A stretch of 57,470 nt of DNA from positions 1-57,470 of the IMG/VR virus record IMGVR_UViG_3300026097_001066; one strand, written 5' to 3'. The position numbers were made by a program, and so were the translations under genes. A model generated the notes under the pieces. The model made no database searches. It was not told the origin of the DNA and worked only from the letters and a program-made list of their open reading frames with translations. Origin of the DNA: a virus. Positions 9,028 to 37,367 of the stretch are shown piece by piece; position 1 is the first letter of the stretch, and every line of letters begins with the position of its first letter.

Positions 9028-10143
9028 TTATAAATTTTTTATTTTTGGAATTTTACTGTCTGCACTGCTAACACAACTATCCGTTATACACGGTTGTGGT
9101 TTATCAAATAACTTAAAACCAGTTTCTATGTTTCCTAAAGGGTTATCATGACAGCTATAAGATCTTTTAACACTACCATCAGGCTCGCGAATAATTATAC
9201 CACTGTAGCCTGCCTGGCAATTCCATCCTTTAAATTTGTTAAAGTTGAATGCATTAAACCGTTCTGCTTGATCCATATACCATTTTTTACCGTATTTGTC
9301 GGTAAATTCTACTTGAAAGTGCCAAGGAACGCTTGCATCTTTCTCGCTCATAATTCCTGGCGATATGTCGAAATTTGGTTTTGGTCTATCGGCCCATTTT
9401 CTTTTACTTTCTGTATATGCTCTCTGCGGCATTCCGTTGTATAATTTTTTTAGGTGCTCGTCTGTATAGCCATCAACAACTCTGCTTGCTGTAGGGTCGC
9501 TTTGAGGCTTTAGTGTGACGTTTATACCTTGCTCATGAAAGAACAGTGCATTGTCCCAATCTCGTTCAAACCATTCAGGCACCATAACCATATTGATTGT
9601 GACCTGAACATCATGCTCTTGACAGAATATCAGTTTGTCTGCAAACTCTTGTTTTTTTTCCGGCGTATTGATATATTCGGTGTGCAGACTTGCAGTTATA
9701 CTAGCGCGATGAAACGGTTTTGCATACTCCACATAAGTTTCAAACCAAGACATTTTTCTGCTACAGTTTGATGTCATATGGATACTGGTGTAGTTTGTGT
9801 TAGGCACGTCGTTGGCAAGATGTTTTAGAATATCCAAATAGCCGGGATGAAAAGTAGGCTCGCCGCCACTGAGACTAAAATGAAAACTGTTGAATCCGTT
9901 GGCACGAGCTTGACGTTTTATTTCATCAACAGTGAGTAGACATAATTCAGTAGGTCTGTGATCTTTTCTGTCGCTCCGTGCATAAGGCCAGCAATAAGAG
10001 CAGGAGTAATTACAAAACCTACCAAGAAGCCAACTGACCGTGAAGATATCTCTATAAAGAAGCGTTCTTTGACCCACTTGAACGATATCTTCGAAGGGAA
10101 TTTTTGTAAAGTCATAGTTGCTCCATTTTAAATTTTCAGTCAT
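9028..10143 (-). CDS. Radical SAM protein (CX3CX2C, FeS cluster)
   Basis: About 371 residues from ATG 10143. The radical SAM cluster motif is CNYSCSYC (Cys44, 48, 51 in this numbering), followed by the SAM-binding GGEP in LSGGEPTFHPG. Later Cys residues, near the end (AGYSGI region, SYSCHDN, ITDSC), could hold a further cluster but do not form a clear SPASM pattern. These enzymes cleave S-adenosylmethionine to start radical chemistry. ATG 10143 gives an 8-base overlap with the SDR gene (ATGACTGA), matching several other junctions in the cluster; ATG 10155 is the longer alternative. The substrate is unknown. It is followed by a 2OG oxygenase-like gene. Confidence 0.88.
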   Translation of the reverse strand: MTENLKWSNYDFTKIPFEDIVQVGQRTLLYRDIFTVSWLLGRFCNYSCSYCWPYARSDRKDHRPTELCLLTVDEIKRQARANGFNSFHFSLSGGEPTFHPGYLDILKHLANDVPNTNYTSIHMTSNCSRKMSWFETYVEYAKPFHRASITASLHTEYINTPEKKQEFADKLIFCQEHDVQVTINMVMVPEWFERDWDNALFFHEQGINVTLKPQSDPTASRVVDGYTDEHLKKLYNGMPQRAYTESKRKWADRPKPNFDISPGIMSEKDASVPWHFQVEFTDKYGKKWYMDQAERFNAFNFNKFKGWNCQAGYSGIIIREPDGSVKRSYSCHDNPLGNIETGFKLFDKPQPCITDSCVSSADSKIPKIKNL

Positions 10144-10696
10144 GCCATTTCTCATCTTGCATAGGATCTATACTAATTTCGTTTATGTTAACATTAAGTG
10201 GTTGATCTATTAACCATTTAATGTAAGCGGCTGCATGTTGTAATTCTAAACATTTTCTCTCTGGATGTTTTTTTTGATTGTTAGAAAGTGTTCCGAAACT
10301 GATGTATGATACTTTAGGCGACTGCGTCCAAACTCCTAATAGCCCTAAACTGTTAGAGTAATCCCTAAGTGCTTTCTTTTCAGCATTATAACGCCATGCC
10401 GTGGCTTTCTTTACTCTGTCAGTAGTGCTTCCCACATTAATTATATGTGGCGAATGATTGTTTTTCTCGCATTCTTTCCATATTGTTTCTAACAAATTTA
10501 CCTGTTCAAATTTCCAAAGAGCTACACAATTTACTATGACATCATGTTTAAGACATAGTTTTGCAAAACTTTCTTGATCTGTTCTATTAGTTAATTCATA
10601 CCCTGTAGTTCTACTACAGAGCGTTGCCGTAGGATATATTTTATATAACTCTGCAGAAAGACCATAGTATTCATTACCAGTTATCAAAACTTTCAT
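10136..10696 (-). CDS. Short-chain dehydrogenase/reductase-like protein
   Basis: 186 residues. It has an N-terminal Rossmann segment (MKVLITGNEYYGLS, a loose TGxxxGxG), a mid-strand IINVGSTTD holding the usual Ser region, and YNAEKKAL, the YxxxK catalytic pair of the SDR superfamily. It is shorter than most SDRs (about 250), lacking part of the substrate-binding end. The likely job is NAD(P)-dependent oxidation or reduction of a hydroxyl/keto group. It overlaps the radical SAM gene upstream by 4 bases (ATGA) and the one downstream by 8 bases, so the three proteins are made together. Confidence 0.72.
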   Translation of the reverse strand: MKVLITGNEYYGLSAELYKIYPTATLCSRTTGYELTNRTDQESFAKLCLKHDVIVNCVALWKFEQVNLLETIWKECEKNNHSPHIINVGSTTDRVKKATAWRYNAEKKALRDYSNSLGLLGVWTQSPKVSYISFGTLSNNQKKHPERKCLELQHAAAYIKWLIDQPLNVNINEISIDPMQDEKWHD

Positions 10697-11871
10697 AGAT
10701 CCATTTCCTTAAAACTTTTACGCCAACTAATATTTCTCGATTGGTCTAGGTCTTCGAGGTACTGCATAAATGTTGGACCTAGAGGTTTCCAGTTGTCTTC
10801 TTCGAACATGTGAGTAACATAAAATTGTACTTTTTCTGTGTATTTGCCAAAATCATAGTTTTTAATTTTCTGTTTTATTTGATTCTTTATATTGTTGGGT
10901 AAAACCTTTGCACTCATATGACTAGGCCATTCTACAAAATTTCCAAAGATAAACTTTATAAGTGGGTAGTTGTTTTTTATATAATCGTATGTATCTGTTA
11001 AATAGAACATACTTATGTTACTACAAGTCCATTGTACACCAATATCTAAATTTGGATTTTGTTCTGCGTAACTGTGCATTAAATCTAACTTCGTTTTAAA
11101 ATCATCCCATTTTATTGGAAATCTAAAATATTCTCCTGGCTCTTTAATTGCATCTAAACTTAATCGTATTATAACATTTTTAAATTTAATTAATTGATCA
11201 AAAATTTTTTCTGTAAGTAACGTACCGTTACTAACATAAGAAAGAGTAATATCTTTTGCGCAATCGCTAGCACTTATTTCTTTTAAAAACTTATTATGCT
11301 CTTTATTAGCAAAGGGTTCTCCGCCTAAAAAATTAAAACGCTTTGTCTGATATAGATTTTCTTTTATGTTGTCCCATATAAAACTATCTTGTTCAATCCA
11401 TTTATTGTCTATATCATAAAATTCGGTGTTAGGATATTTGTTGAGCATCGATTTATCTTCGTTCCATTTAGAACTTGCGCCTGTACCACAGTGTATACAC
11501 TTCAAATTGCATATTGTGCCAACCCTAATATCAATATTAGTAGGATAATATGGAACGCTGCCATCGGGCAGCGTTTTAGCAATAAGATGTTCGTTAGGTT
11601 CATAGTGATAACGATTTTCCTCAATTCGTTTACTGCTTCCGCCTAATTCTTCTACATACTTACAGCGTTTACAATTTTCAGGGTACCTGCCTTCTAAGAA
11701 TTCTTTTCGTATACTTTTAAAATACTCATTATTCCATTCATCGGCAATTGTACTGCCTTTTAGTTTTACCTGTGCTGCTTTTACCGTAGATTGATCAGCA
11801 TAACCGCAGGTTCGAGGCCTGCCGAATGTGTTAGTGCTAAAATTTATCCAAGGCAAAATACAAGGTTTCAT
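10693..11871 (-). CDS. Twitch-domain-type radical SAM protein
   Basis: 392 residues from ATG 11871, which overlaps the upstream stop by 4 bases (ATGA); a start at 11925 would lie deep inside the previous gene. The N-terminal part carries Cys4 in CILPW, Cys22, and CKRC (67, 70), fitting an N-terminal twitch-like auxiliary FeS domain. The radical SAM motif CNLKCIHC follows at 121-128, with GGEP in NFLGGEPF. The layout (N-terminal cysteines, then the radical SAM core) is shared with the proteins at 13578, 16285, 18816 and 22301. The substrate is unknown. It is coupled to a QueC-like ATP pyrophosphatase. Confidence 0.87.
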   Translation of the reverse strand: MKPCILPWINFSTNTFGRPRTCGYADQSTVKAAQVKLKGSTIADEWNNEYFKSIRKEFLEGRYPENCKRCKYVEELGGSSKRIEENRYHYEPNEHLIAKTLPDGSVPYYPTNIDIRVGTICNLKCIHCGTGASSKWNEDKSMLNKYPNTEFYDIDNKWIEQDSFIWDNIKENLYQTKRFNFLGGEPFANKEHNKFLKEISASDCAKDITLSYVSNGTLLTEKIFDQLIKFKNVIIRLSLDAIKEPGEYFRFPIKWDDFKTKLDLMHSYAEQNPNLDIGVQWTCSNISMFYLTDTYDYIKNNYPLIKFIFGNFVEWPSHMSAKVLPNNIKNQIKQKIKNYDFGKYTEKVQFYVTHMFEEDNWKPLGPTFMQYLEDLDQSRNISWRKSFKEMDL

Positions 11872-12611
11872 ACAAGTCTTCCAAATGCGTATGCTCTTTC
11901 CATACAAAACCAGCACTGTCCACAATGTGTGTATTCTTGAAATCCGTTAACAATATTAGTTTTTGTTTTTTCTTCTGCTTTACTGTTTTCACAACTATAT
12001 GTTAATGGCAATAACTCATCCGTGACATTATTTTCTTTATACATTTTTGCAGTACTATGCCTCTTATCTCTACGAACAAACGGATGAATTGCATAAAATG
12101 GAACTTTAGTATCAGACCAGCTTCCTATTGGCTTTTTAGATAGATCGTCTCTTGCAAAATCTTTTTGTTTACACATCTCAAATACTTCAGCGTGTGTATT
12201 AAGAAAAATTCCCGAAACATGTTGTGCAATATTAGCTTGTAGTTCTATAGGTGGATTTTGTGTTAGGCCGCCGTACCACACATTTGCCTTACCTTCTGAT
12301 ATTATTTTATATGCATTGTCGTCTTGTTCTCTGATATAATCTTCAATTGTCCATGGGTTTGACAAAAATCTAATCCTGTGTTCGACTGGCTCAATGCCGG
12401 TGCGATCTTTTGTGAAAGTAATAACTTTTTTTGCATAATGACTATACCAAGGTTTAGTTTCGGTATCTAAAGTAGCACAGTAAATAGGTATGTCAAGATT
12501 TTTTTCAGCTATTTCTTTACATAACCTATAATATATTATCGAACTGTCGGCGCCGCCAGATAGTTTCATTACTATCCCGATAGTATTATTTGGTAATAAT
12601 TCAGTAAGCAC
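11868..12611 (-). CDS. QueC-like ATP pyrophosphatase (PP-loop)
   Basis: About 247 residues. The PP-loop SGGADS (18-23) marks the N-type ATP pyrophosphatase superfamily. A C-terminal Cys set (Cys206, then CGQCWFC at 230-236, followed by an Arg) matches the zinc site of QueC, which makes preQ0. The rest is diverged, so it may adenylate another carboxylate or amide. The start is unclear: GTG at 12611 is 17 bases from the strong AGGAGG (12635-12630), while ATT codons at 12623 and 12620 sit at normal spacing. A GATAAATA late box lies at 12648-12641. It is coupled to the next radical SAM gene. Confidence 0.72.
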   Translation of the reverse strand: MLTELLPNNTIGIVMKLSGGADSSIIYYRLCKEIAEKNLDIPIYCATLDTETKPWYSHYAKKVITFTKDRTGIEPVEHRIRFLSNPWTIEDYIREQDDNAYKIISEGKANVWYGGLTQNPPIELQANIAQHVSGIFLNTHAEVFEMCKQKDFARDDLSKKPIGSWSDTKVPFYAIHPFVRRDKRHSTAKMYKENNVTDELLPLTYSCENSKAEEKTKTNIVNGFQEYTHCGQCWFCMERAYAFGRLV

Positions 12612-12640
12612 TTCTGTAATAATAGTTTTCCTCCTAAAAT

Positions 12641-12648
12641 TATTTATC
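12641..12648 (-). promoter_or_regulatory. T4-type late promoter box (GATAAATA)
   Basis: Read on the minus strand as GATAAATA, 29 bases before the GTG at 12611, with a strong ribosome binding site between. It would drive the QueC-like/radical SAM/SDR/radical SAM run. Confidence 0.6.
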
Positions 12649-12661
12649 TATTATATACGCA

Positions 12662-12669
12662 CATAAATA
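12662..12669 (+). promoter_or_regulatory. T4-type late promoter box (CATAAATA), at the start codon
   Basis: CATAAATAC ends 5 bases before ATG 12675. T4 late transcripts begin about 6-7 bases after the box, so the mRNA would start at or near the AUG, giving a leaderless message. No ribosome binding site is visible. Confidence 0.55.
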
Positions 12670-12674
12670 CACTT

Positions 12675-13517
12675 ATGAGAGACAACATAAAAAGAGAATA
12701 TACCCAAGAATGGCTGCAATATGACAGACCACAGCCTATGTATAGCAGAGAAATTAATAAATTTTATGATCGTTTTTATCAAGAAAATCCGGTTCATACT
12801 CCGGATTTAGATCAACAGTTTAAAGATACTTTTATTAAATGGTTAAAAGATCATAAGTTTAGTGCATTCCTCGGATTGGATGCATTTCCGAGAAGAGATA
12901 TTATAAATGGCTGTACACAGTTTATAGACGATTTATATCAACGCTGCGGAACATTACAAACATTCGAAAACGATTACAAGTATCACTGGAGACTTAATCC
13001 GGATATTGTATACACTACACTAGACACATTAGATCCTAGCAAAGAACTATTAATTTCCATGCCATTTCCGTTCTATGGCGATGTACATCCGGACATGCAA
13101 AAAATACTAGATACTGCATACAAAAAAAATATTCCTGTACACATAGACGGAGCATGGATCAGTTGTATAAGGGACATCGAGTTTAACTTTGATCATCCTG
13201 CTATACAGACTGTAGGCATTAGTTTAAGTAAAGGCGGTATGGGAGGGAATCGTATTGGATTAAGATTTGCTCGTTCAACACCTGAAGGTTCTGTAACTAT
13301 TATGAATGATTTTAACATGAATAGTCAAGCACTTGTAAGCATGGGTATAAAATTTATGACAGAGTTTGGACCTGAATATTTTTGGACAAGTTATCAAGAA
13401 GCATATTATCAAGTTATTAAAGATTTTAACCTAGAACCTACAAAAGCAATTCATCTTGCTAGGAGAAATGATAACCCTGTTGGAGTTAGACCATTGTTAA
13501 GATTTTTACAACCTTAA
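12675..13517 (+). CDS. PLP-dependent aminotransferase-like protein (shortened)
   Basis: 280 residues with fold-type I PLP-enzyme features. HIDGAW carries Asp158, expected to bind the pyridine nitrogen, and ISLSKGGMGGNRIG carries Lys186 as the Schiff-base lysine with an Arg/Gly-rich phosphate-side loop. Aminotransferases of this class usually have 350-400 residues; here much of the C-terminal small domain is missing, so activity is uncertain, although the frame is intact. It is the only plus-strand gene inside the minus-strand cluster, with a late box at its start codon. It could supply an amino-sugar or amino-acid step to neighbouring enzymes. Confidence 0.7.
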   Translation: MRDNIKREYTQEWLQYDRPQPMYSREINKFYDRFYQENPVHTPDLDQQFKDTFIKWLKDHKFSAFLGLDAFPRRDIINGCTQFIDDLYQRCGTLQTFENDYKYHWRLNPDIVYTTLDTLDPSKELLISMPFPFYGDVHPDMQKILDTAYKKNIPVHIDGAWISCIRDIEFNFDHPAIQTVGISLSKGGMGGNRIGLRFARSTPEGSVTIMNDFNMNSQALVSMGIKFMTEFGPEYFWTSYQEAYYQVIKDFNLEPTKAIHLARRNDNPVGVRPLLRFLQP

Positions 13518-13577
13518 TTGATGACTTTATTAATCTATTTAAATACATAAAAAAATTTTGTTTTTTAATTACACACA
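13518..13577. terminator. AT-rich convergent gap, possible weak bidirectional terminator
   Basis: 60 bases between two converging genes. An A-run followed by a T-run (AAAAAAATTTTGTTTTTT, about 13550-13567) could pair as a weak A/T-only hairpin ending in a U-tract in both directions. There is no GC stem, so a true terminator is doubtful. Confidence 0.25.
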
Positions 13578-14747
13578 TTAGATGTTATCAATAGTCCATC
13601 CTAGAAAGTTCCAAGTATCAGTGCCCCGCCATTTATCAGTCATGTTAACATGATGTTTAAACATTTCTAATTGGACAACTTCTTTGTCTTGTCTTAATAA
13701 GTTAATTAATTCTTCTATATTTTGGATTTCGTTGCTGTAAAACTTGTATTTCGATATAATATTTTCAAGTTTGTCGGCCTCTTTTAATCTAAGTTCCTTA
13801 GGAGAATTTTGTAAACTATACCACATAGTCCCATTTAACCAACTAAAGCCAATTTGAAATCTTTCTACATCACCTGTATAACTTTTAAACCAATCTATAC
13901 TATCATATAAATTATCTATATTCAAATTATGCGGAACAACAATAAACTTACATGATAACCAAGGATATTTTTTTAAAATATCTACACTTTTTACAGTATC
14001 TTCCCATTTTAACGGCCATCTTAGATGTTCATAATGTTTTTTGCCTACGCCGTCAATGCTAAAATTAATATGGCAATGATCAAAATTTTGTAATTTTTTA
14101 ATTTGATTCTCAGAAAAGCTTCCATTTGTAGTAACACTTAAAATTGGTAATTCTTTTTCTGAACTAATAAGTTTATCGATTAGATTATCAAAATGCACAT
14201 TAATAAAAGGTTCACCGCCGCTTATTTCTAATTTATTAATTACATCAGCCTTATTCACAATACTATCTGTTATATTTTTGTACCAAATTTTTGTTTTATT
14301 CCATTCAAACTTTTTCTCCATAACTTTTTTTAAATCAGTATATTCTACAGTATCAATCATGTTTTTATATTGTTTTTCTACTAAGCTGCTACGACTAACA
14401 TTGCATATCCTACATGCAGTATTACACTGATTTCCAAAAGTTATCATTATATGCTCAATGTTATCAAGATTTGATTTTTTCTTATTATAATATTTTACAC
14501 GTCGCTCACGCATACTTTCAGTTTCTTGATCTTCTTGTTTCCAACATATGTTGCATCCAGGAATTTTTTCTCCGTTGTCTAAAGATTTTTTGATAGAGTC
14601 GAGCCATTTACTAGAAACATAGTCGTCTATGTTATCTATACCATGATCTCTATTACCTATATATTGGCAGCAAGGCCCTAAATTTCCTCTACTGTCAAAA
14701 TGAACTTGTTTATAAGGCTCTGTACAAAATGTCTTTGATTTAGTCAT
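13578..14747 (-). CDS. Twitch-domain-type radical SAM protein
   Basis: 389 residues. N-terminal Cys8, Cys26-Cys27 and CNIC (65, 68) form the twitch-like auxiliary cluster region. The radical SAM motif is CNTACRIC (108-115), followed by LEISGGEPF. The core strands and ICNVSRS segment match the other four twitch-type proteins here. It is the last gene of the long minus-strand run from 30862, 8 bases after the preceding gene, with AGGAAC as ribosome binding site. It faces the aminotransferase-like gene tail to tail across a 60-base AT-rich gap. The substrate is unknown. Confidence 0.87.
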   Translation of the reverse strand: MTKSKTFCTEPYKQVHFDSRGNLGPCCQYIGNRDHGIDNIDDYVSSKWLDSIKKSLDNGEKIPGCNICWKQEDQETESMRERRVKYYNKKKSNLDNIEHIMITFGNQCNTACRICNVSRSSLVEKQYKNMIDTVEYTDLKKVMEKKFEWNKTKIWYKNITDSIVNKADVINKLEISGGEPFINVHFDNLIDKLISSEKELPILSVTTNGSFSENQIKKLQNFDHCHINFSIDGVGKKHYEHLRWPLKWEDTVKSVDILKKYPWLSCKFIVVPHNLNIDNLYDSIDWFKSYTGDVERFQIGFSWLNGTMWYSLQNSPKELRLKEADKLENIISKYKFYSNEIQNIEELINLLRQDKEVVQLEMFKHHVNMTDKWRGTDTWNFLGWTIDNI

Positions 14748-14755
14748 ACATGTTC

Positions 14756-15397
14756 CTATTTAAAAAAAATTGTAGTTTTTCTTTTATCCCATCCCATATT
14801 TGTGGTAATAATTTTATATTCGTTATCGTAAGTTATAATATTTTCTGTTTTAAATTTTATTTTATTTTGCATGAATCTATTAGATAATCTTTGGACCATT
14901 CGTGCTTGAATTTTTTTATTTAGGGCTGCAAAAATTATTCCTCTGTGAATAAAAAAAGGGAAACATTTGCACTCTAAAATTAACTTAGACACCAAAAGAG
15001 TATTACAAGCGTTTCCGCCAAATGCATAAAATGATACACACATCTTATTCTTTATCTTTGAATAATTTTCTATAAAAAAATTGTATAGATCATTATCGCT
15101 TACATCTATGTGTAAATAAGTTGAAGCAGTAGAAAAATTAACTCCATTTGTCTCTTTTATTTCTAAAATTGGCACCTGTTGTTGCCATTTTTTATATAGT
15201 TTACAGAATTTATGTCTATCGGAAATTGCTGAAAAATTTTCAAATAATGTAATTTTGTCTAGTTCGTCCCAATTGTTAACGAAATTCGCACAGAGATATT
15301 CACCGTCGAATACTCCTATTATTTCTGTTGATGAAAACATTTGTGGATAACAAGGAATTAATTCACTCAAGATAGGATTTTGTTCATTAATTATCAT
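14756..15397 (-). CDS. Unknown protein in radical SAM cluster
   Basis: 213 residues from ATG 15397, which overlaps the previous stop as ATGA; a GTG at 15424 would add nine residues but has no clear ribosome binding site. It has several Cys residues (FCKLYKKW, NACNTLLVS, ECKCF) without a recognisable cluster motif, and hydrophobic strands such as MCVSFYAFGG. The family is not recognised. It lies between a 2OG oxygenase-like gene and a twitch-type radical SAM gene, within the coupled run, so a partner or substrate-handling role is possible but unproven. Confidence 0.65.
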   Translation of the reverse strand: MIINEQNPILSELIPCYPQMFSSTEIIGVFDGEYLCANFVNNWDELDKITLFENFSAISDRHKFCKLYKKWQQQVPILEIKETNGVNFSTASTYLHIDVSDNDLYNFFIENYSKIKNKMCVSFYAFGGNACNTLLVSKLILECKCFPFFIHRGIIFAALNKKIQARMVQRLSNRFMQNKIKFKTENIITYDNEYKIITTNMGWDKRKTTIFFK

Positions 15398-16284
15398 TGC
15401 ATTTTCGATTGCTCTAATCTCCACTTGTCTAGTAAATCTTCGTCTAACTCTATAATAAATGTCATAAGCAATCCCATTTTACTATTCCATTTTTTAGCAG
15501 GTTCTGTGCCTTTAGTACCTTCATTTGTTGCGTGTAATTGAACAGCATCAAAAATACACGGAGATCCGGGAACCCAATCAAATACAGATTCTGGGTTTAA
15601 TCCTTGAACTCTGCGATAGGGTGTATTTAAATATTTCTTATGAAAATCTTTATCAAATGGCTCATTATTGTGTTCGATTGGACAGCCATTTCTATCATAA
15701 AACTGCAAATAACTGTAATCAGTCACAATTTCGTATATACTCGCAATGTTTGGAGTTAGTGCACCACCATTGTACACTTTTGCCCACCCTATATCTCGCT
15801 GTTCAAAGAATATAATTTGTCCTCCGTCGACTTCATCCAAATGTGTTCCTATCCAAAGAGGAGTAATTATATTTTTCCATGTTGTATATTTTCGCTGAGG
15901 ATGACTTAAAGGTACTTCTTCGAGCATGCCATTATAACCTTTTTTACGCATAGCATCTTGATGTAAACCGTACTGTTGCGGAGTAATAAAATAGTTGCCT
16001 CCGATGGTAGGAGATTTCCCTGCGACAGAACCTAACACTGTGTCAAATTTTTCTTTATAACGCTGATAGATTATTTCCATATCAACATCTACAATAACAG
16101 TACCGTTACGATTCAATCGAGGTTTATTAAAATCAGCAGTAAAAGCATTATGCCACATCCATTCTAATTCATCTTCTGTCCATAAATTTTCAATACATTC
16201 AGCTTTACTACTATGTCTTCTTACATTTTCTATTGCAATAGGATGGTCCATCGGTAGTAAATAGAATCCCGGTTCGTCAACCAT
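15394..16284 (-). CDS. 2OG-Fe(II) oxygenase-like protein (phytanoyl/prolyl hydroxylase style)
   Basis: 296 residues. YGLHQDAM gives His108 and Asp110 as the HxD pair. PLWIGTHLDEVDGGQIIFFEQRD follows the usual double-stranded-helix pattern with its Asp-Gly-Gly turn (residue letters here span several strands). Distal His251 lies in AVQLHATN after PGSPCIFD, where family members carry the second His and the residues following it. Its start abuts the upstream radical SAM gene (no gap), with GGAGAAATAA as ribosome binding site, and its end overlaps the next gene by 4 bases. It is the only 2OG-type gene inside the long radical SAM run. Confidence 0.7.
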   Translation of the reverse strand: MVDEPGFYLLPMDHPIAIENVRRHSSKAECIENLWTEDELEWMWHNAFTADFNKPRLNRNGTVIVDVDMEIIYQRYKEKFDTVLGSVAGKSPTIGGNYFITPQQYGLHQDAMRKKGYNGMLEEVPLSHPQRKYTTWKNIITPLWIGTHLDEVDGGQIIFFEQRDIGWAKVYNGGALTPNIASIYEIVTDYSYLQFYDRNGCPIEHNNEPFDKDFHKKYLNTPYRRVQGLNPESVFDWVPGSPCIFDAVQLHATNEGTKGTEPAKKWNSKMGLLMTFIIELDEDLLDKWRLEQSKMQ

Positions 16285-17349
16285 TTATTTCTCCATATAT
16301 TTTTTTAGTAAAGGATTATGGTTACCAATATCTGTATGTAATGCCATATCCATATCTGATGTATATTTTCTAAGTTCTTCAAATTTTCCATTATACTGGA
16401 TGCTTGGTAAATATTTTTTATTAAAACTATCTGTAGTTTGTTGTATATAGGAGGAAGGCAAACTATTTACGCTAAGATATTCAGGTACTTGTAATAAACT
16501 ATTATGAAATTCTATACCTAATTCGTCAGCTAGGGCTTTAATATTTTTAACATCGTGAAAATTATATGCCTGAACTGTTGTAAACACAGAAAGTTTCAAA
16601 TTATCTGATTTACTTTTGTATTTTGACCAACTATGTATTGTTTCATAAATTACACTCCATGATTTTCCGTGTCTAATATATTCATTTACAGGGCCAATAC
16701 CATCGATACTTAATTCAACACTGAGTTTTTTCAGTTTTTTAAAATATGGTAAAAATTTTGAAGGAAAATAGGTTGCATTTGTATTACAAATAAAATGTAT
16801 ATTCTCAAGTAAATTATTTTGATTTAAAAATTTGAATAAATCCCAAACTTGTGGTGTTACAAAGGGTTCACCTCCTAAATATTTGATTCCTTTAAGTTTT
16901 GAAAGATCAATAGAAGCAAACACTTTTTCTATGTCAATAAATGGTTGATCATACGGTGAGTGGTATTTTTGTGCAAGTTTTGTTTTGCGCACAAATTTAT
17001 CCCATTTAGTGCTATATGCAGGACTACACATTCTACACATTAAATTACATTCATTAGAAACACTTATTTCGATATATTCAATTTGATCTTCTCCAGACCA
17101 ATTTTCATTCATTGTTAATCTTAAACTTTTGTGTCCGCGTTCTTCCTCAGTTTTACATTTTAAACAGCCTTCTGACCAGCCTTCTTCCATGTCTGTGATA
17201 ATTTTTTGATAGAATTCATTATTTTTATATTCGTCAAAAGGTGTATCAAAAATTTTTACATTTGGAAAATTTGCAAATCGGCAACACGGACGCCAAGAAC
17301 CTGTTACTGTTACACACATATGGTTTTTTAATGCATTACATTTAGGCAT
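16285..17349 (-). CDS. Twitch-domain-type radical SAM protein
   Basis: 354 residues. Cys4, Cys22-Cys23 and CLKC (62, 65) give the N-terminal auxiliary-cluster pattern, and CNLMCRMC (101-108) the radical SAM motif, with KYLGGEPF as the SAM-binding strand and ELSIDGIG as the next conserved strand. It follows the cobalamin-type radical SAM gene with no gap and abuts the 2OG gene downstream. It is among the shorter of the five twitch-type proteins here. No substrate can be named; the nearby 2OG oxygenase is the likeliest co-worker. Confidence 0.87.
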   Translation of the reverse strand: MPKCNALKNHMCVTVTGSWRPCCRFANFPNVKIFDTPFDEYKNNEFYQKIITDMEEGWSEGCLKCKTEEERGHKSLRLTMNENWSGEDQIEYIEISVSNECNLMCRMCSPAYSTKWDKFVRKTKLAQKYHSPYDQPFIDIEKVFASIDLSKLKGIKYLGGEPFVTPQVWDLFKFLNQNNLLENIHFICNTNATYFPSKFLPYFKKLKKLSVELSIDGIGPVNEYIRHGKSWSVIYETIHSWSKYKSKSDNLKLSVFTTVQAYNFHDVKNIKALADELGIEFHNSLLQVPEYLSVNSLPSSYIQQTTDSFNKKYLPSIQYNGKFEELRKYTSDMDMALHTDIGNHNPLLKKYMEK

Positions 17350-18810: not shown

Positions 18811-18815
18811 AGTGA

Positions 18816-20225
18816 TTATAAATCCTTAAAAATTTTTGTCATTTCTGGAAAATTTTTTAAAAAATCTGTGTTACGCTGTTTGTCACATAACTCTAAAAAT
18901 TCTTTAGTTTCAGGAAGTCTTATACTCCAATCTTCACTCTCCATAAATTGTAACATGCCTTTTAGCCTATTTATCCCGTAAGGTGCGTTTATAAATTCTT
19001 CTTTCGTAACCTTACCTTTATGCCAGCTAGGAATACCAAGATCCCAATTTTCTTCCCACCACGGATAAAATTCCTCGTATTTTTTGCGAACTTCTGCTTT
19101 AAACCATTCAGGCAACACCTTGACGTTTAGATGAGGCGGATGATATACAAAATGATAGTTAATTGCTCCTGCTCCAAACGGCCACATATTAATTTTATTA
19201 AACCCCTGTTCTAGCTTCCAGCGTATAAAGTCCGGTATGTAGTAGATATTCAGTGCCTGAACTGCACATGCAACTGTAACTTCTACATTGTTGCTAGTTT
19301 CTTTATCTAGGATGTGAAATACTTCTTCTGTTCTAGACCATTTACTAGGATATCTTATATATTCGTTTCTTTCAAAAATATCGTCAACTGAATAGTGGAA
19401 GCGAACCAATTTAAATTCTTTCCAAAGATCAAACAGATCGTCGCGCCACTCAACTCCGTTGGAGTTATAACGCAGTTCAAGATTTTTTGCATAACCCATT
19501 TTGATTGCATATTCGAGGATTTCATAATGCTCTTCAATAATTAGACTTTCGCCGCCGGCAAAGTAAATCTGTTGCATGCTAGACATTTGCTCATAAAACT
19601 GCTCCCAGAACTTAGGATTTTGTTTGTGCCAATTGTAACTACTGCCATTGTAACTTCCTTTATCCTGCCATTGCATAGTTTCTTTTAAAGATGCATTTTC
19701 AACTGCTGGAAAAATTGCTTTGTAATCTTTAATCCAACCTGAACTATCGTGCGGTGAACACATGACACAGGCAAGTTGACACTTGGTGCCAAATCGAAGA
19801 TCGATGTAAGCCAATTGCGGTGGCACACTCCCATCTTCTGCTGTGTTTTTTATTAGAGTATCAACATCGACTCGCTGGCTCCAATATTTTGTTTCCCACA
19901 TCCGTTTGCTGTTATGTCCTGCTGCTTCTTCTTTGAAACATTTAACACAACTGGGAGGTATTTCGCCATTTAACATTTGTTTGCGGACATTTTTCATGTA
20001 ACTGCTGTTCCAAGCAGTTTCAAAATCACTTACATTTAGATTGTTAGGTTTACCGTCGTCAGTTTTAAGAATACCAACCTGGCCGCCATGTTCTTTATCA
20101 TTAGTAGGACCAACTGAACTGGCATTTGCCGTGCAACACACTCGCATACTTCCATCTGGTCTGGTGCTTAGATGAACCCAGGGTAATATACAAAAGGTGT
20201 TCGAAGGGGATTTTTTATTTGACAT
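18816..20225 (-). CDS. Twitch-domain-type radical SAM protein
   Basis: 469 residues, the longest of its type here. N-terminal Cys12 in CILPWVHLS, Cys30-Cys31 and CVKC (93, 96) make the twitch-like region. The radical SAM motif is CQLACVMC (149-156). The SAM-binding strand reads FAGGES instead of GGEP. CILPW and the DGSVP...YIDLRFGT stretch are also seen in the protein at 10693, so these two are the closest pair. A TATAAATA late box ends only 4 bases before the ATG, and there is no ribosome binding site, so the message may be leaderless. It is the only gene in the long run with a full late box in front. Confidence 0.88.
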   Translation of the reverse strand: MSNKKSPSNTFCILPWVHLSTRPDGSMRVCCTANASSVGPTNDKEHGGQVGILKTDDGKPNNLNVSDFETAWNSSYMKNVRKQMLNGEIPPSCVKCFKEEAAGHNSKRMWETKYWSQRVDVDTLIKNTAEDGSVPPQLAYIDLRFGTKCQLACVMCSPHDSSGWIKDYKAIFPAVENASLKETMQWQDKGSYNGSSYNWHKQNPKFWEQFYEQMSSMQQIYFAGGESLIIEEHYEILEYAIKMGYAKNLELRYNSNGVEWRDDLFDLWKEFKLVRFHYSVDDIFERNEYIRYPSKWSRTEEVFHILDKETSNNVEVTVACAVQALNIYYIPDFIRWKLEQGFNKINMWPFGAGAINYHFVYHPPHLNVKVLPEWFKAEVRKKYEEFYPWWEENWDLGIPSWHKGKVTKEEFINAPYGINRLKGMLQFMESEDWSIRLPETKEFLELCDKQRNTDFLKNFPEMTKIFKDL

Positions 20226-20229
20226 AATG

Positions 20230-20237
20230 TATTTATA
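20230..20237 (-). promoter_or_regulatory. T4-type late promoter box (TATAAATA), at the start codon
   Basis: Read on the minus strand this is a perfect TATAAATA followed by C, ending 4 bases before ATG 20225. The transcript would start at or inside the start codon, as with the box at 12662. It sits in the largest gap (45 bases) of the long run. Confidence 0.65.
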
Positions 20238-20270
20238 ATGCTTGATTTTTAAATTTTTAGTTATTGAAAT

Positions 20271-21359
20271 TTATTCCCTAAATTTATTTTTTGAAAATTC
20301 TACATCTCCACTTTCTAACATTGTTATCTTATGCTCTATTTCCCATCGTTGTCTATTATTTACGCTACAAGTATTTGTGCATACGGGATTTCTACTGCAG
20401 GGTGTTAACTTTTCATGATCTACATTATTCCAACTTTCAGTTAAATCGTTTTTAAAAAAAGAATGTTCTAATATTTTATCTATGTGATGATAGTAAACAT
20501 TATTCCAATTTTTTCCGTATACATTATCATATCTTTTCCAATGTTCTTCAAAGTCTACTACTCTATATCGTATGTTATACATGAAACAACAAGGAAAAAT
20601 TTCTCCTGTATGCGCAACAAAATATGCTTTTTCGTCGTTTGCAGTTTTGCAATATATATTACCTTTAAACCTTTTGAGAGCGTGTACATATTCAGACCAA
20701 GATAAAGTGTGTCTCCTTTTTTCGTTTTCGAATTTTTTTGATAATTCGTGTAAATCTAAATTATCTAAACTTGTATCGTTTCTCTCTCTAAAAGAACGAA
20801 ATCCCATTGATTTTGCAAGTTGTTTTGCTTCTTCAATTTGATGTTTATTCCAAGGAAAAACTACCCATTGCCAACTAGGACTGCCGCCTGCTGATATAAA
20901 GGCGCGAGCGTTCTCCATAATTTTTTTAAAATTTGTTCCTCTTCTATAGATATGATTTGTATCTTCTAATCCGTCTACACTAAAATTTAAGGTATACTTT
21001 GTTCCTTTTAAAATCTTAGCCATATCTTGCCAGTAACTCGACGATCGTAAACTAGCATTCGTATGTATAATAATTCTAAAATTTGTGTGTTGAACTATAT
21101 AATATAACATATCAAGAAATCTAGGATGCATTAATGGATCGTCTATAGATGCACAAAATTGTATTTCTTCAACACTTTGAAATCGTTTTGCATGTAATAT
21201 TTCTACAAATTTATCAAAATCTAAAAATTTGTTTTTTGGAATTCTAGGATTTAATTTTAATTCGTTAAATGGATCAGCTCGGCTGCACCCTATACAATTT
21301 GCATTACAATTGCTACTAAGTTCAAACTGCACAGCCTTTGGTTCTTCTAAATAATGCAT
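20271..21359 (-). CDS. SPASM-type radical SAM protein
   Basis: 362 residues from ATG 21359, which has AAGGA about 12 bases upstream; the frame stays open to 21434, but that part overlaps the previous gene by 56 bases. The motif CNANCIGC is at Cys18, 22, 25. The SAM-binding strand is IQFCASIDDP rather than GGEP. The C-terminal part carries an SPASM-like Cys set: IYCKTAN, FPCCFMYN, then LTPCSRNPVCTNTC, for auxiliary clusters. It is a relative of 23458 and 24477, sharing the FSVDGLEDTNHIYRRG segment. Peptide-modifying SPASM enzymes are well known, but no precursor peptide is evident. Confidence 0.87.
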   Translation of the reverse strand: MHYLEEPKAVQFELSSNCNANCIGCSRADPFNELKLNPRIPKNKFLDFDKFVEILHAKRFQSVEEIQFCASIDDPLMHPRFLDMLYYIVQHTNFRIIIHTNASLRSSSYWQDMAKILKGTKYTLNFSVDGLEDTNHIYRRGTNFKKIMENARAFISAGGSPSWQWVVFPWNKHQIEEAKQLAKSMGFRSFRERNDTSLDNLDLHELSKKFENEKRRHTLSWSEYVHALKRFKGNIYCKTANDEKAYFVAHTGEIFPCCFMYNIRYRVVDFEEHWKRYDNVYGKNWNNVYYHHIDKILEHSFFKNDLTESWNNVDHEKLTPCSRNPVCTNTCSVNNRQRWEIEHKITMLESGDVEFSKNKFRE

Positions 21360-21378
21360 TTTTTTTAAATTTTCCTTT

Positions 21379-22323
21379 TTATTTTTCTTTGCTGATTTCA
21401 ATATCACTTCCACAAGTACATTCTGCATATTCACATATGACTGGTTTTTTTAACAACAAAAAATTTTTAGGATCTTTTTTGATATTTCCCATTACAATTT
21501 GTTGATTGCAAGCATTAGCAGGAACAATATCACCGTTGGCTTTAATTACTAGTAGATCTCTGCCAATATTACATGCCCAACCTTTAAACTTATTTCGACC
21601 TGCTTGTATTAGATCATGATTAGTTTCTTGTGTTACTGTGCCGTTATCGTAATAACAATTGATACCCAGACTTGTAATATTTTTTTTAGTACTAGGCCTA
21701 TATGCTGTTGATTTATGTGCTTGCTTCATCCATTTAATTTGAGCAGTTGTATATTGCATCCAATCACTTTTTCCAAATTCAACTTGAAGTTTTTTGACTT
21801 GTATTGGTACTACTGTATTATCTCTTAGTTTTTCATAAATAGAGACACACTTGTTCCAATTGTTTACATCCATTAGCATTTGTATATTTGTTTGGCAACT
21901 ATTTTTTATATTATTAACGACTTGAATCGTATGATTAACATCAGCCTGTTCGTGGTGATAGCTAATACTAACTTTGTCAAGATACTGCTTTGTCCGATTC
22001 CACCAATTAATGGTCCTACTTCCGTTAGTCAAAATATTAACCATACTGTTCGGATCTGTATTTTTAATAATTTCACTTAGTCGTGTAAAGTACTTCCATA
22101 CCGTAGGTTCACCACCTAGTATAGTATAAATTCTATAATCGTGATTACTTTGTTCAGTAATTCTTTTTACAATAGTTTCGCATTGGTAGATATCTGGCCA
22201 GTATAGATCGCCGCCATTACTGTCTGGTGTACAATAGCTGCATTTAAAGTTGCATACATTTGACAGTATCCAATCTACAACTAATATATTATTTCTGGTT
22301 TTAATTTTTTGTAAATTTGCCAT
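21379..22323 (-). CDS. Radical SAM protein (short, CX3CX2C)
   Basis: 314 residues. CNFKCSYC (24-31) begins the radical SAM core, followed by ILGGEPTVWK and ILTNGSRT. The C-terminal portion holds GWACNIGRD, ANACNQQ and EYAECTCG, which could bind one auxiliary cluster. The layout is closest to the protein at 9028 (GWNCQAG, then late Cys), so these two form a pair distinct from the twitch and SPASM types. It overlaps the preceding gene by 23 bases. The substrate is unknown. Confidence 0.85.
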   Translation of the reverse strand: MANLQKIKTRNNILVVDWILSNVCNFKCSYCTPDSNGGDLYWPDIYQCETIVKRITEQSNHDYRIYTILGGEPTVWKYFTRLSEIIKNTDPNSMVNILTNGSRTINWWNRTKQYLDKVSISYHHEQADVNHTIQVVNNIKNSCQTNIQMLMDVNNWNKCVSIYEKLRDNTVVPIQVKKLQVEFGKSDWMQYTTAQIKWMKQAHKSTAYRPSTKKNITSLGINCYYDNGTVTQETNHDLIQAGRNKFKGWACNIGRDLLVIKANGDIVPANACNQQIVMGNIKKDPKNFLLLKKPVICEYAECTCGSDIEISKEK

Positions 22324-23458
22324 CTGCTTTTTCGATCATGTATCGCATATAAGGATATTGTTCTAGGTATTTAACATTACATTTATAATTCCAAATATCT
22401 TCGCTGTAATGCTTTAGCATGTTGCACTCTTGTTGAGTAGGTTCTATATATTCGTATATTAACTTATCTTTAAACATTTGCCAGTTGATATTACCATTTT
22501 TTACTTCTAAAGTTTTAAAATTATTAATTAAATTTTGTCTTTCCTCTAAAGGAACATACCTATAATTCAAAAAACTAGGATGATCAACTTCGTTGTAAGA
22601 GACTCTTGATTTTGGAAATTGATTTGCCCAAGTTATAAACTCTGCCATATTTAAAAGATTTAAATGTGTTAGGCACGGAGTAAGAGATACTTTGCAAGAT
22701 GTGTTATACATTTTTATAAAATTTTTTTCAATAGTAGCCCACCGTGCTGGATATCTTTGATATTCTAATGCTCGACCAGTTCCATCTATACTGCACATTA
22801 ATTCTACTCTTTTAAATTTTTCTAATGTGTCTAACACCCTTGTTTTTGCACTTGTACAATTCGTAATAAATTCAATATCTAATTCTGTTTTTCCTCTTTC
22901 TACTAACTTGAATAAAAACTCTTCAACTTCTGGCATAATAAAAGGTTCGCCGCCTGCGAATCTTATTTTTTTAAGACTAGGTAATTCTAAAACTAGATTT
23001 AGCAATTTTTCTGTATCAGAAATAGTAGGAACACAGGTTTTATATAGATCATTATCAATTCCTTGATTATAAAGTTCAGTAGCAAGATTTGCAATTTGAT
23101 CGCTTGCGCCGCCGTAGCACATCTTACATTGTAAATTACATTTATTGCTTAATCTTAAATCTACAAATTCTAGATCAACTATGCGAGGTATTATTTGGTC
23201 ATTTAAAGTTCTGTGACGTTTACTTTGTGCATTTTTATTTTCATACTTCCAGCATGATTCACATGCTGAATTTTGTATTCCATTTTTTAAATCATTTCTA
23301 ACATCATTTAACCAACTATTTGTTTTATACCATTCGTTTAAATCTGATATAGATTGCCAATCTTTAATTTGTACATCCCTAGACTGTGTACAACAATGAC
23401 CTATCCAACCTGTGGTACTAACTGCTAAACTATTGTATACCAAAGGACAATTAATCAT
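22301..23458 (-). CDS. Twitch-domain-type radical SAM protein
   Basis: 385 residues from ATG 23458, which shares one base with the previous stop (TGATG) and has GGAG 8 bases upstream; the GTG just before it is less likely. N-terminal Cys4, Cys22-Cys23 and CESC (66, 69) are the twitch-like set, and CNLQCKMC (107-114) is the radical SAM motif, followed by IRFAGGEPF and MCSIDGTG. It is similar in layout to 16285 and 13578. The substrate is unknown; the gene is tightly packed between SPASM-type and short radical SAM genes. Confidence 0.87.
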   Translation of the reverse strand: MINCPLVYNSLAVSTTGWIGHCCTQSRDVQIKDWQSISDLNEWYKTNSWLNDVRNDLKNGIQNSACESCWKYENKNAQSKRHRTLNDQIIPRIVDLEFVDLRLSNKCNLQCKMCYGGASDQIANLATELYNQGIDNDLYKTCVPTISDTEKLLNLVLELPSLKKIRFAGGEPFIMPEVEEFLFKLVERGKTELDIEFITNCTSAKTRVLDTLEKFKRVELMCSIDGTGRALEYQRYPARWATIEKNFIKMYNTSCKVSLTPCLTHLNLLNMAEFITWANQFPKSRVSYNEVDHPSFLNYRYVPLEERQNLINNFKTLEVKNGNINWQMFKDKLIYEYIEPTQQECNMLKHYSEDIWNYKCNVKYLEQYPYMRYMIEKADGKFTKN

Positions 23459-24480
23459 CACTGCACTCCGTTGTATAGAGGTAAAGGTCTTTTAACTCCT
23501 GCACAATTATTACAAATATCAATAGATTGTGCTTGCCATGCAGGATGCAAATCCTCAACAAAATAATTTACTATATCAGATAGACTTTGTTTTAATATGT
23601 GGTTATTTTTATATTTAACATAATCAAAATTTGTTTTCTTATCTATTTGTCGGCCACTTATATAACAACAAGGCCATACATTGCCCCAGGGATCTATTTG
23701 TATCATTCCTTCTTGTGCATATGGGCATTTAAATTTTCCTTCTGGAGTATTAACTTTAGTAGACGGAGTACGAACACTATAGGCAAATACATCTTTTCTC
23801 ATATAGTTAGTCTTAAATTCTCTTTGATCAGGAGAAGTTAATTGCTGTGCTGGAAAATTTCTATAAGCCTTCATTTGTAGAGGGTTAGATCTATTTCTAT
23901 TTGTCTGAAATGCCATACAGCCTAGATCTTGTGCTAATTTGCTCATTTCGTCTAGCTGATATTTATTGTAATCAAATACTATACATTTCCATATACTGTT
24001 ACCACCGGCGGTATTAAAACTTTTAATATTTTCAATACGCTTAGTCCAATCAATCCCTCTACGATAAATGGCATGTGTTTTTTCTAGGCCGTCGATACCA
24101 AATTTTATATCGTGTTTGACAAATTTATTAAGAACTACAGCAAGATCATGCCAAAATTGTGCGTTTCTTGCACCACCGTTAGTATTTAGATTTAGATATA
24201 GATTTGTTTTTTTTGCAGCTAGCATTTCCATCATTTCAATAAAATTTGGATGCATACTAAAGTCTCCAAAATTGCCATTGAAAATTATTTCATTTATCTG
24301 ATCTATCATAGGATCATCAACTAATCGTTGCCATACTTCTAAAGACAAATGATTTTGTTGTAGTCCTTTCACTTTTTCTCCGCCAGAAACATTTCTATCA
24401 CAGGCACCACAAAATGCATTGCAGAAACTTGTGCAGTCTATTTCGATTTTAGAAATACTTTTAGGTGAATACAGATTCAT
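23458..24480 (-). CDS. SPASM-type radical SAM protein
   Basis: 340 residues. CNAFCGAC (20-27) is the radical SAM motif. In place of GGEP it has FNGNFGDF, matching the GNxGD form of 24477. The C-terminal SPASM-like part includes FKCPYAQEG, VWPCCYISGR and DICNNCAG, seven or so Cys for auxiliary clusters. KTHAIYRRGIDW matches the equivalent segment in 20271 and 24477. It overlaps the upstream gene as ATGA and the downstream gene by one base. Confidence 0.87.
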   Translation of the reverse strand: MNLYSPKSISKIEIDCTSFCNAFCGACDRNVSGGEKVKGLQQNHLSLEVWQRLVDDPMIDQINEIIFNGNFGDFSMHPNFIEMMEMLAAKKTNLYLNLNTNGGARNAQFWHDLAVVLNKFVKHDIKFGIDGLEKTHAIYRRGIDWTKRIENIKSFNTAGGNSIWKCIVFDYNKYQLDEMSKLAQDLGCMAFQTNRNRSNPLQMKAYRNFPAQQLTSPDQREFKTNYMRKDVFAYSVRTPSTKVNTPEGKFKCPYAQEGMIQIDPWGNVWPCCYISGRQIDKKTNFDYVKYKNNHILKQSLSDIVNYFVEDLHPAWQAQSIDICNNCAGVKRPLPLYNGVQ

Positions 24481-25559
24481 TTAAATTGCTCTGCGAAGGG
24501 ATCAAATTCTGATCCGCATTTTTGCGCACACACTCCTAGTTTTCCCTGTTCGATGCTGTTTAGGTTCCAACTTGAAGTAATGCTTTCGATTAACTTGCCA
24601 TTCACAACATCTTCAATTTCGTTTTCAATTACACTAATACCTTGTTTTCCGCCTGCTACATCGATATGATCCCATATTTGTTCTACTCGAGGATCACTGT
24701 GCCACCATTTATACATACGCCCAGCGGTCCAGCAACAAGGCATTAATAGTCCTTCTGCTGTGATGAAAATACTACCCTGTTTTGCTACTTTGCACTCAAC
24801 ATTGCATCTGTCTAAATATTCACTCATACTACCATATGACTTGACAATTTCTTTTTGTTTCAGTAATGCAAGATTTTGGTTTTGTTCTTGTTTGGGTTTT
24901 TGTAATTTTGCAGTTTCTTCACCTTTTCGATTTACTGCCTGATGAGCTTCTTTAGGCTTAATATCGCTTGTGACAAATCTTCCTGATTTCTTTTTAATAA
25001 ATTTTTCGAAACCCCATTCACCGGACAGTTGTTCAGCTTCTTTAACTTGGTGTTCGTTGTGCTGAAATACCAGAAAGTCCCATCTTCCTCTGCCTCCGGC
25101 ACTGGTAAATGCTTTCATTGAACGCTCTACATTATCCCAGTTTACACCTTGGCGATATATATGATTAGTATCCCGTAGGCCATCAACGCTGAAAATAACA
25201 GCACCCATCTTGCCGAAAATTTCTGCAAGTTCTCTCCACCATGTTTCATCTCTTGCTCCTGCGTTTGTGTTCATACTCAACCACATGTCGGGATTATGTT
25301 CTCTAAAATATCGAAATATTTCTAATGTATCTCGTGCTACAATAGGATCGCCCAAATTGCCGCACATGTACATTGTTTTTAATTGTGCAATAAACTCGGG
25401 TTTAAAAATACACTTGCAGTCTTCTAAACTTAATTCAGCATTTGTAATATGCGGATTATCTGCGCCACCGTTCATGTTACGATCGCACATAGGACAAGCA
25501 GCTTGACATCTTTGTGTTATTTCAAGATGCACTTCTTTTATATCTTGATATCTATACAT
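24477..25559 (-). CDS. SPASM-type radical SAM protein
   Basis: 360 residues. CQAACPMC (18-25) is the radical SAM motif; MCGNLGDP replaces the usual GGEP. The segment DTNHIYRQGVNW is shared with the other two SPASM-type proteins. A charged insertion (about 195-235, rich in Lys, Gln and Glu) separates the core from the C-terminal Cys set: RCNVECKVA, MPCCWTAGR and VCAQKCG. It is the first radical SAM gene of the long run and starts with an 8-base overlap (ATGTATAG) with a 76-residue unknown protein. The substrate is unknown. Confidence 0.88.
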   Translation of the reverse strand: MYRYQDIKEVHLEITQRCQAACPMCDRNMNGGADNPHITNAELSLEDCKCIFKPEFIAQLKTMYMCGNLGDPIVARDTLEIFRYFREHNPDMWLSMNTNAGARDETWWRELAEIFGKMGAVIFSVDGLRDTNHIYRQGVNWDNVERSMKAFTSAGGRGRWDFLVFQHNEHQVKEAEQLSGEWGFEKFIKKKSGRFVTSDIKPKEAHQAVNRKGEETAKLQKPKQEQNQNLALLKQKEIVKSYGSMSEYLDRCNVECKVAKQGSIFITAEGLLMPCCWTAGRMYKWWHSDPRVEQIWDHIDVAGGKQGISVIENEIEDVVNGKLIESITSSWNLNSIEQGKLGVCAQKCGSEFDPFAEQFK

Positions 25560-31865: not shown

Positions 31866-31899
31866 ATTTTAACCTCTAATAATATACGCATATATTATT

Positions 31900-33390: not shown

Positions 33391-33413
33391 CTGCGAACCC
33401 CTCTAATATATTG

Positions 33414-33421: not shown

Positions 33422-33431
33422 GTATGTGTTT

Positions 33432-37363: not shown

Positions 37364-37367
37364 TCAA

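Follow-up and report, generated by a model that had tools for sequence, protein, structure and literature searches.

Radical SAM genes in a variable island beside the tail-fibre genes of a marine phage: a conserved kernel and an interchangeable accessory set

The window analysed here is the whole 57,470-nucleotide stretch (positions 1 to 57,470) of the IMG/VR virus record IMGVR_UViG_3300026097_001066, and between its positions 9,028 and 25,559 lie eleven genes for radical S-adenosylmethionine (SAM) proteins. Phages usually carry genes for radical SAM chemistry only a few at a time. The best explanation is that the window comes from an uncultured marine T4-like phage and holds its copy of a hypervariable island that lies within the host-recognition region. 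Its conserved kernel consists of three radical SAM genes (R1, R2 and R3), a glycosyltransferase gene, a gene for a methyltransferase-like protein and usually a gene for a small protein that we call sm76, and the accessory set around this kernel is interchangeable.

When scored against the Pfam Radical_SAM model (PF04055, curated cut-off 29.5 bits), all eleven proteins passed with 32.7–56.4 bits (E-values 1e-7 to 5e-15), which excludes chance, and a genome-wide scan recovered the same eleven at 30.5–56.6 bits. The frames are uninterrupted, all on the minus strand, with one CX3CX2C motif apiece. This confirms the eleven radical SAM proteins claimed by the initial annotation, and the profile search that it had proposed in case most of them lacked the fold scored each one as radical SAM. 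Extra N- or C-terminal cysteines for auxiliary clusters occur in 10 of the 11; the exception, 17350 (proteins are named by their left coordinate), has a B12-binding domain (PF02310, E-value 3.7e-9), and its nearest models, PhpK and a C-methyltransferase of ribosomally synthesized and post-translationally modified peptides (RiPPs), both score far below cut-off. Five proteins (10693, 13578, 16285, 18816 and 22301) exceed the 170-bit cut-off of the NCBIfam model N_Twi_rSAM (NF033640) with 210–422 bits and are full-length N-terminal-twitch proteins; the other five of the ten proteins scored, 9028, 17350, 21379, 23458 and 24477, gave at most 53 bits or no match. The SPASM cut-off is passed by 23458; SPASM-like cysteines stand at the C-terminal end of 24477 and 20271, and the shorter proteins 9028 and 21379 have C-terminal cysteines as well. 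The radical SAM and kernel genes are as follows:

9028..10155, minus strand: R1, core radical SAM protein with C-terminal auxiliary cysteines C313, C335, C356 and C361; Pfam 51.7 bits
10693..11925, minus strand: accessory radical SAM protein, N-terminal twitch; Pfam 47 bits, NF033640 310.6 bits; translation probably begins some 19 codons after the listed TTG
13578..14747, minus strand: accessory radical SAM protein, N-terminal twitch; Pfam 53.5 bits, NF033640 209.9 bits
16285..17349, minus strand: accessory radical SAM protein, N-terminal twitch; Pfam 44.7 bits, NF033640 222.2 bits
17350..18810, minus strand: accessory B12-binding radical SAM protein of methyltransferase-like architecture; Radical_SAM 56.4 bits, B12-binding 36.9 bits
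18816..20225, minus strand: R2, core radical SAM protein, N-terminal twitch (C12, C30, C31, C93, C96); NF033640 422 bits
20271..21434, minus strand: accessory radical SAM protein, C-terminal SPASM-like cysteines; Pfam 48.2 bits
21379..22323, minus strand: accessory radical SAM protein, short, C-terminal cysteines; Pfam 46.3 bits
22301..23461, minus strand: accessory radical SAM protein, N-terminal twitch; Pfam 40.6 bits, NF033640 225.4 bits
23458..24480, minus strand: accessory radical SAM/SPASM protein; Radical_SAM 32.7 bits, SPASM 21.7 bits, both above cut-off
24477..25559, minus strand: R3, core radical SAM/SPASM protein; Pfam 37.2 bits
25552..25782, minus strand: sm76, conserved protein of 76 amino acids overlapping the start of R3; absent from the list of the initial annotation
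25779..26663, minus strand: class I methyltransferase-like protein, from sequence motifs by eye; no Pfam match
26647..28275, minus strand: tandem GT-A glycosyltransferase-like protein; AlphaFold2 pLDDT 86; 45–70% identity in 10 contigs

Ten comparison contigs drawn by R2 similarity make up, together with the window, a set of eleven long contigs, not all of which extend to both ends of the island. Gene order in this set is fixed (gp25, gp6, the gene for a giant protein, fibre genes, 30915, 30512, 29662, 28833, 26647, 25779, sm76, R3, R2, R1 and left boundary genes), with the variable genes occupying slots between kernel members. All 80 loci drawn by R2 keep their kernel members, where present, in the order glycosyltransferase, sm76, R3, R2, R1 on one strand, and the radical SAM genes of related contigs lie mostly in one island between the tail-fibre genes and a conserved VWA-like gene. 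The gene-order search advised initially has thus found kernel order kept and accessory content varying. Given that identical order recurs, in collinear islands, across many independent contigs, an artefact or a chimera of phage and bacterial DNA, which had been raised as a concern, is ruled out.

Phage origin is borne out by the right half of the window, which is structural DNA whose baseplate genes are related to those of Atu_ph07, Phosso, SCTP-2 and PA5oct. For gp6 and the giant protein, the nearest cultured relatives are the jumbo myophages Phosso, SCTP-2, Atu_ph07 and PA5oct-type phages (30–37% identity); the best cultured matches of gp6 are baseplate wedge proteins of jumbo phages (34–37%), and the giant protein shares about 30% identity with structural proteins from Atu_ph07 and from phages of the PA5oct type. 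The island adjoins the fibre and giant baseplate genes and its content differs between relatives, as expected of a host-recognition island; its GC content is 32.7%, against 38.9% and 36.2% in the flanks. The flanking features are:

208..1494, plus strand: conserved left boundary gene, VWA-like by eye; 44–75% identity in 8 of 10 contigs
30915..37982, minus strand: putative virion genes, tail-fibre genes among them (30915, 31903, 33432, 35333, 37368), with orthologues in most of the 10 contigs; 31903 has a PHROG tail fibre match
38004..53153, minus strand: giant virion or baseplate protein of 5049 amino acids, from similarity to jumbo-phage structural proteins
53167..57079, minus strand: baseplate wedge gp6-like and gp25-like genes, gp25 assigned by position and orthologues

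In three contigs (G016, G035 and G040) gp6 carries a long C-terminal Ser/Gly tail ending in GGGGYGY (GGGYGY in G040). These tails are not systematic, being absent from the window and the other contigs.

Of all proteins compared around the island, two kernel members show the highest conservation. R1 and R2 have a mean amino acid identity of 85%, compared with 52% for gp6, 54% for gp25 and 45% for one fibre, and their four-fold synonymous sites are 37–42% identical (33% expected by composition). High protein identity combined with near-saturated four-fold sites indicates old divergence under strong purifying selection. Contig G020 (L119-L123) has a divergent backbone (gp6 33%) yet keeps R1 and R2 at 83%; with four-fold sites near saturation even against this contig, recent horizontal spread is ruled out as the source of the high identity. 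Because the comparison contigs were drawn by R2 similarity, R2 identity in them is biased upward; in loci drawn by R1, R2 has a median of 82% (range 60–87%), and R1, with at least 268 relatives in IMG/VR, is 80–88% identical among the 80 best of them. In G051, a relative drawn by sm76, the values are 88% for R1 and 60% for R2. R3 has a counterpart in 10 of 10 long contigs (62–82% identical). The listed R1 cysteines are invariant in 11 contigs, and in all three core enzymes the cysteines for auxiliary clusters show essentially no variation.

The small protein sm76 is 69–84% identical in 46 aligned sequences, lacks cysteine in most copies, and its gene overlaps the start of R3 in nearly half of the loci. 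Being small, extremely conserved and so often encoded in overlap with R3, it could be the precursor or scaffold of a RiPP-like released peptide that acts on the host or on competitors after maturation by the kernel and variable tailoring; many accessory enzyme types are known from RiPP clusters, and some islands contain a subtilase. However, AlphaFold2 predicts a compact, ordered three-helix fold (pLDDT 90), which rules out an unstructured precursor, and conservation over the whole length leaves no variable core. We also found a PqqD-type RiPP recognition element in 0 of 37 contigs, and sm76 is missing from 5 of 80 loci that keep R1 to R3, which weakens it as a substrate and means that it is not an obligatory one of all three enzymes. 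Such a peptide is therefore an improbable product of the island. The fold of sm76 has no relative in the PDB. Two loci (L030:6327-6848 and L050:6268-6813) have in its place a small kinase-like-looking protein with the motifs NQDAHLKN and LDAD and no family match.

Next to sm76, the methyltransferase-like protein 25779 is conserved and in some contigs fused to the glycosyltransferase 26647, which is split in others. AlphaFold2 and Foldseek resolve 26647 into two GT-A domains with invariant D65 and D67 (DxD), making it a predicted glycosyltransferase whose model folds like bifunctional GT-A polymerases: its top PDB match is the chondroitin polymerase K4CP (2z86, E-value 2e-6), with further matches to RmlT, SunS/ThuS and collagen galactosyltransferase.

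Outside the kernel, turnover is high. At a 38% threshold, three radical SAM families are found in 11 of 11 contigs and 63 others are confined to a single contig, and the eight accessory radical SAM proteins of the window have best counterparts in the group at 28–40% identity. The initial annotation had proposed a dedicated multi-step pathway, which is not borne out: eight of the eleven enzymes have no near equivalent elsewhere in the group, whose members therefore share no eleven-step route to a single product. Across the contigs, the best same-contig paralogue of an accessory radical SAM protein has a median identity of 27.6%, ruling out recent tandem duplication, and the best homologue elsewhere a median of 37%; both values are low, so these proteins come from a wide pool rather than from recent duplication. 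This pool is a reservoir of more than 100 uncharacterized radical SAM enzymes in the eleven contigs alone. Other accessory enzymes are Asp/Arg hydroxylases, TauD, desaturases, nitroreductases, FkbM methyltransferases, Trp halogenases and a carbamoyltransferase, as well as aminotransferases, epimerases, RmlD, CTP_transf_3 and QueC-like proteins.

Relatives are numerous in IMG/VR, with at least 327 for R2, at least 268 for R1 and 466 loci for sm76. Related contigs, up to 382 kb long, have 4–23 radical SAM genes each, with up to 23 concentrated in one island; the 382-kb contig has 14 of 14 inside 30 kb, and a 330-kb contig has 16 inside about 42 kb. The eleven genes of the window, initially called exceptional, are so in comparison with the six cultured phages checked (0–6 genes) but ordinary within their own phage group. 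Among 50,697 cultured phage records, tblastn gave no match for R1, sm76 or the glycosyltransferase and only weak matches for R2 and R3, leaving a group seen in hundreds of IMG/VR contigs nearly absent from cultured phages. The 275-kb relative G051 carries a T4-type terminase, tail-sheath stabilizer, polymerase B, ribonucleotide reductase and other phage genes, together with ten tRNAs and a permuted transfer-messenger RNA of alphaproteobacterial type (L230:10771-11164; RF01849, 127.8 bits; tag ANSNFKPEVFANFDEVAIAA), which hints at an alphaproteobacterial host. Three contigs of metagenome-assembled genomes labelled Gammaproteobacteria, Rickettsiales and Neisseriaceae (L138, L139 and L140) have kernel genes and look like phage contigs binned with bacteria. 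The 255-kb Vibrio phage K566 (L266:7989-14725) carries four radical SAM genes of an N-twitch-like type, and the genes next to them are glycosyltransferase-like.

Radical SAM genes of marine viruses have been read as auxiliary metabolic genes in two publications (PMC9301287, PMC5332604), and the enzymes of the island might likewise boost a host pathway that depends on a cofactor or on Fe-S clusters (heme, PQQ and others). An A-type Fe-S carrier gene is present in 1 of 37 relatives (G051:136589-136891). Against this, cofactor-synthesis models all scored far below cut-off, and 8 of the 11 enzymes of the window are not conserved. Full-length N_Twi proteins above cut-off occur in only 1 of 142 genomes of one bacterial class, where 9 of 12 hits fall on a single contig; its coordinates agree with those of the phage-like record NZHE01000012.1, which also carries sm76 and R3. 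As this phage-like contig holds most of the hits in that genome, the family NF033640 looks mainly viral. We regard auxiliary metabolism as highly improbable.

The other genes of the island comprise the following:

10136..10696, minus strand: SDR-like accessory protein; weak NCBIfam short-chain dehydrogenase/reductase (SDR) matches; family in 6 other contigs (39–61%)
11868..12611, minus strand: QueC-like PP-loop protein with C-terminal CGQCWFC; QueC 21.2 bits against a cut-off of 22
12675..13517, plus strand: possible short aminotransferase-like protein dependent on pyridoxal phosphate; partial valine-pyruvate transaminase match, E-value 1.3e-8, about 100 amino acids
14756..15424, minus strand: accessory protein without family match
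15394..16284, minus strand: possible 2-oxoglutarate oxygenase, by an HxD...H pattern only; relatives in 3 other islands (27–40%)
28259..28840, minus strand: semi-conserved protein; 28–39% identity in 7 contigs
28833..29669, minus strand: glycosyltransferase-like protein; Mannosyl_trans3 23.7 bits, cut-off 22
29662..30525, minus strand: conserved block protein, presumed glycosyltransferase-like; 31–53% in 10 of 10 contigs, without family match

The neighbours named in the initial annotation hold up in part. The QueC-like protein falls just under its cut-off, the SDR and aminotransferase matches are weak or partial, and 15394 has no family or PDB match, although true TauD-type 2-oxoglutarate oxygenases are clear at 4482 and 6506. 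Proteins of the 11868 type are recurrent accessory members, with similar C-termini in many islands. Their recurrence bears on the idea that the phage protects its DNA from restriction with altered bases, produced through the QueC-like, radical SAM, glycosyltransferase and carbamoyltransferase genes. Restriction is a pressure that would favour variability; the 275-kb relative has GTP cyclohydrolase I and thymidylate synthase as well. Yet the island adjoins the fibre and baseplate module and not replication genes, the QueC match is below cut-off and QueE-type matches far below it, and neither a complete preQ0 route nor a base-transfer enzyme was seen in the island, most of the genome lying outside the window. 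DNA hypermodification is thus quite improbable.

Cultured phages give another view of radical SAM genes in this position. Atu_ph07 and Phosso have four radical SAM matches each, adjoining fibre and giant baseplate genes and flanking a protein of about 300 amino acids that is 38% identical between the two phages. Both copies share the C-terminal tail CHxSCHASCHxSRSRR, with the endings CHSSCHASCHNSRSRR or CHTSCHASCHSSRSRR, and comparable tails occur in two further contigs:

L001:11119-12009: CHxS-tailed protein of Atu_ph07, gp170
L269:10415-11335: CHxS-tailed protein of Phosso
L354:7956-8660: long CHxS array in a 250-kb contig, with six flanking radical SAM frames
L353, near 2745: three-repeat CHxS tail in a 48.7-kb contig, adjoining a radical SAM gene

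These (CHxS)n tails end in R-S/G-R-R and lie next to rSAM/SPASM genes. In Atu_ph07 and Phosso the closest RiPP maturases of the adjoining rSAM/SPASM enzyme are DynA and PapB, and near-full-length alignment extends to DarE. Of seven matches to the CHxS DNA pattern, four were taken as chance, with no CHxS-tailed frame and no radical SAM gene nearby. According to Attai et al. (PMC6102473), the Atu_ph07 virion proteins identified by mass spectrometry belong mostly to three clusters, among them CDS 170-215; since the baseplate protein gp181 has the same number in RefSeq and in the published numbering, gp170 is the first member of this cluster and a probable virion protein. Judged from sequence, a probable virion protein of these cultured jumbo phages looks as if it undergoes modification of the RiPP type. 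A third cultured phage, the Pelagibacter phage Mosig EXVC030M (L270:18479-35306), has an island with the same accessory repertoire between fibre genes and VrlC, including two Asp/Arg hydroxylases, TauD, a desaturase, two nitroreductases, three genes annotated as MoaA-like, a carbamoyltransferase and aminotransferases. In all three phages, virion modification can be tested by mass spectrometry.

Taken together, the fibre-adjacent position, the glycosyltransferase kernel, the protein-type tailoring enzymes and the CHxS case suggest that the island may decorate virion receptor-binding proteins or their attached glycans, as a variable decoration island, a reading to which we give a probability of about 0.4. 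Its chemistry, acceptor and benefit are inferred from the observed enzyme families, order, constraint, variability and position. The kernel (26647, 25779, 25552, 24477, 18816 and 9028) would probably build one common modification, which the interchangeable pool (radical SAM enzymes, 2-oxoglutarate hydroxylases, QueC-like proteins, halogenase, nitroreductase and others) would then alter. The most likely acceptor would be a virion protein of the neighbouring fibre and baseplate module, or a glycan on such a protein, and the phage would vary its host-facing surface chemistry rather than fibre sequence alone.

Several observations weigh against decoration. Neither a CHxS tail nor a comparable repeat was found in the clade of the window, and hhalign does not support homology of gp170 to 30915, so that the acceptor is assigned by positional analogy. 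The fibres are conserved rather than diverse, and covariation of fibres with enzymes thus lends no support. In loci without sm76 another protein fills the slot (a QueC-like one in G020), and the Foldseek TM-scores of 26647 are low, perhaps through a differing arrangement of its two domains.

In a strong rival, glycosyltransferases build a host surface glycan (lipopolysaccharide or capsule) and radical SAM and other enzymes alter its sugars, blocking superinfection. Glycosyltransferase genes of pelagimyophage islands have been interpreted in this way in print (PMC7029224), and the rival agrees with a glycosyltransferase-type kernel, with conserved ends around a variable middle of lower GC (32.7% against 36–39%), as in O-antigen loci, and with the sugar enzymes (epimerase, RmlD and CTP_transf_3) among the accessory genes. 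Classical sugar enzymes are few, however, with no glycosyltransferase family among the accessory families listed and mostly amino-acid-type tailoring, and in cultured relatives the corresponding place is occupied by RiPP-like tails. We consider host-glycan remodelling unlikely, though clearly to be reckoned with. Returning to decoration of the virion, its broadest form is put forward tentatively: a widespread marine phage family would use a radical-SAM system to modify receptor-binding proteins or glycans post-translationally, with a universal three-enzyme core diversified by swappable radical SAM and hydroxylase cassettes, and the CHxS tails would be a simpler version. If the products sit on virions, the surface would be diversified by enzyme repertoire, a route of host recognition or counter-defence that we did not find described in open-licence literature.

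Large radical SAM sets in marine T4-like phages are already published (PMC5332604, PMC7029224); what is new here is the conserved core, the constraint on it, its breadth and a cultured test system. The open-licence literature that we searched gave no description of the kernel, of the constraint on it, of sm76 or of proteins with CHxS tails. Among known systems, RiPP clusters with rSAM/SPASM maturases resemble the window in having several SPASM or twitch enzymes, a small conserved protein and mixed tailoring enzymes, but the window has a glycosyltransferase kernel and a phage structural context, with no PqqD-type recognition element. A RiPP precursor with leader and variable core was not found in the clade, where sm76 is folded and conserved throughout and no repeat tails were found. 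TARA_ERS488813_N000010 (PMC5332604), a T4-like genome of environmental origin in which 12 radical SAM genes are reported, is similar by description in radical SAM number and, like G051, has an A-type Fe-S carrier; its genes are reported as Fe-S-related, and the kernel, an island structure and an acceptor are absent from the passages available to us. The clusters of Atu_ph07 and Phosso likewise stand beside fibre and giant baseplate genes with several rSAM/SPASM genes (in Atu_ph07 next to a cupin/JmjC-type protein), but they have four Radical_SAM matches where the window has eleven, include no orthologue of R1, R2 or R3, and surround the CHxS-tailed protein, which the window lacks. The pelagimyophage host recognition cluster (PMC7029224) is also a hypervariable island of the structural region; it lies beside VrlC and fibre genes and includes glycosyltransferases together with radical SAM cassettes. 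At the border opposite the fibres pelagimyophages have the neck gene gp14; the window has the VWA-like gene (208-1494) at this border and ends before any neck gene. In gp6 and the giant protein the window best matches jumbo phages and not the HTVC008M-type phages expected for a pelagimyophage, its baseplate being closest to Atu_ph07, Phosso and PA5oct-type phages, and it is further set apart by far more radical SAM genes and by a three-radical-SAM kernel that is essentially absent from cultured phage records.

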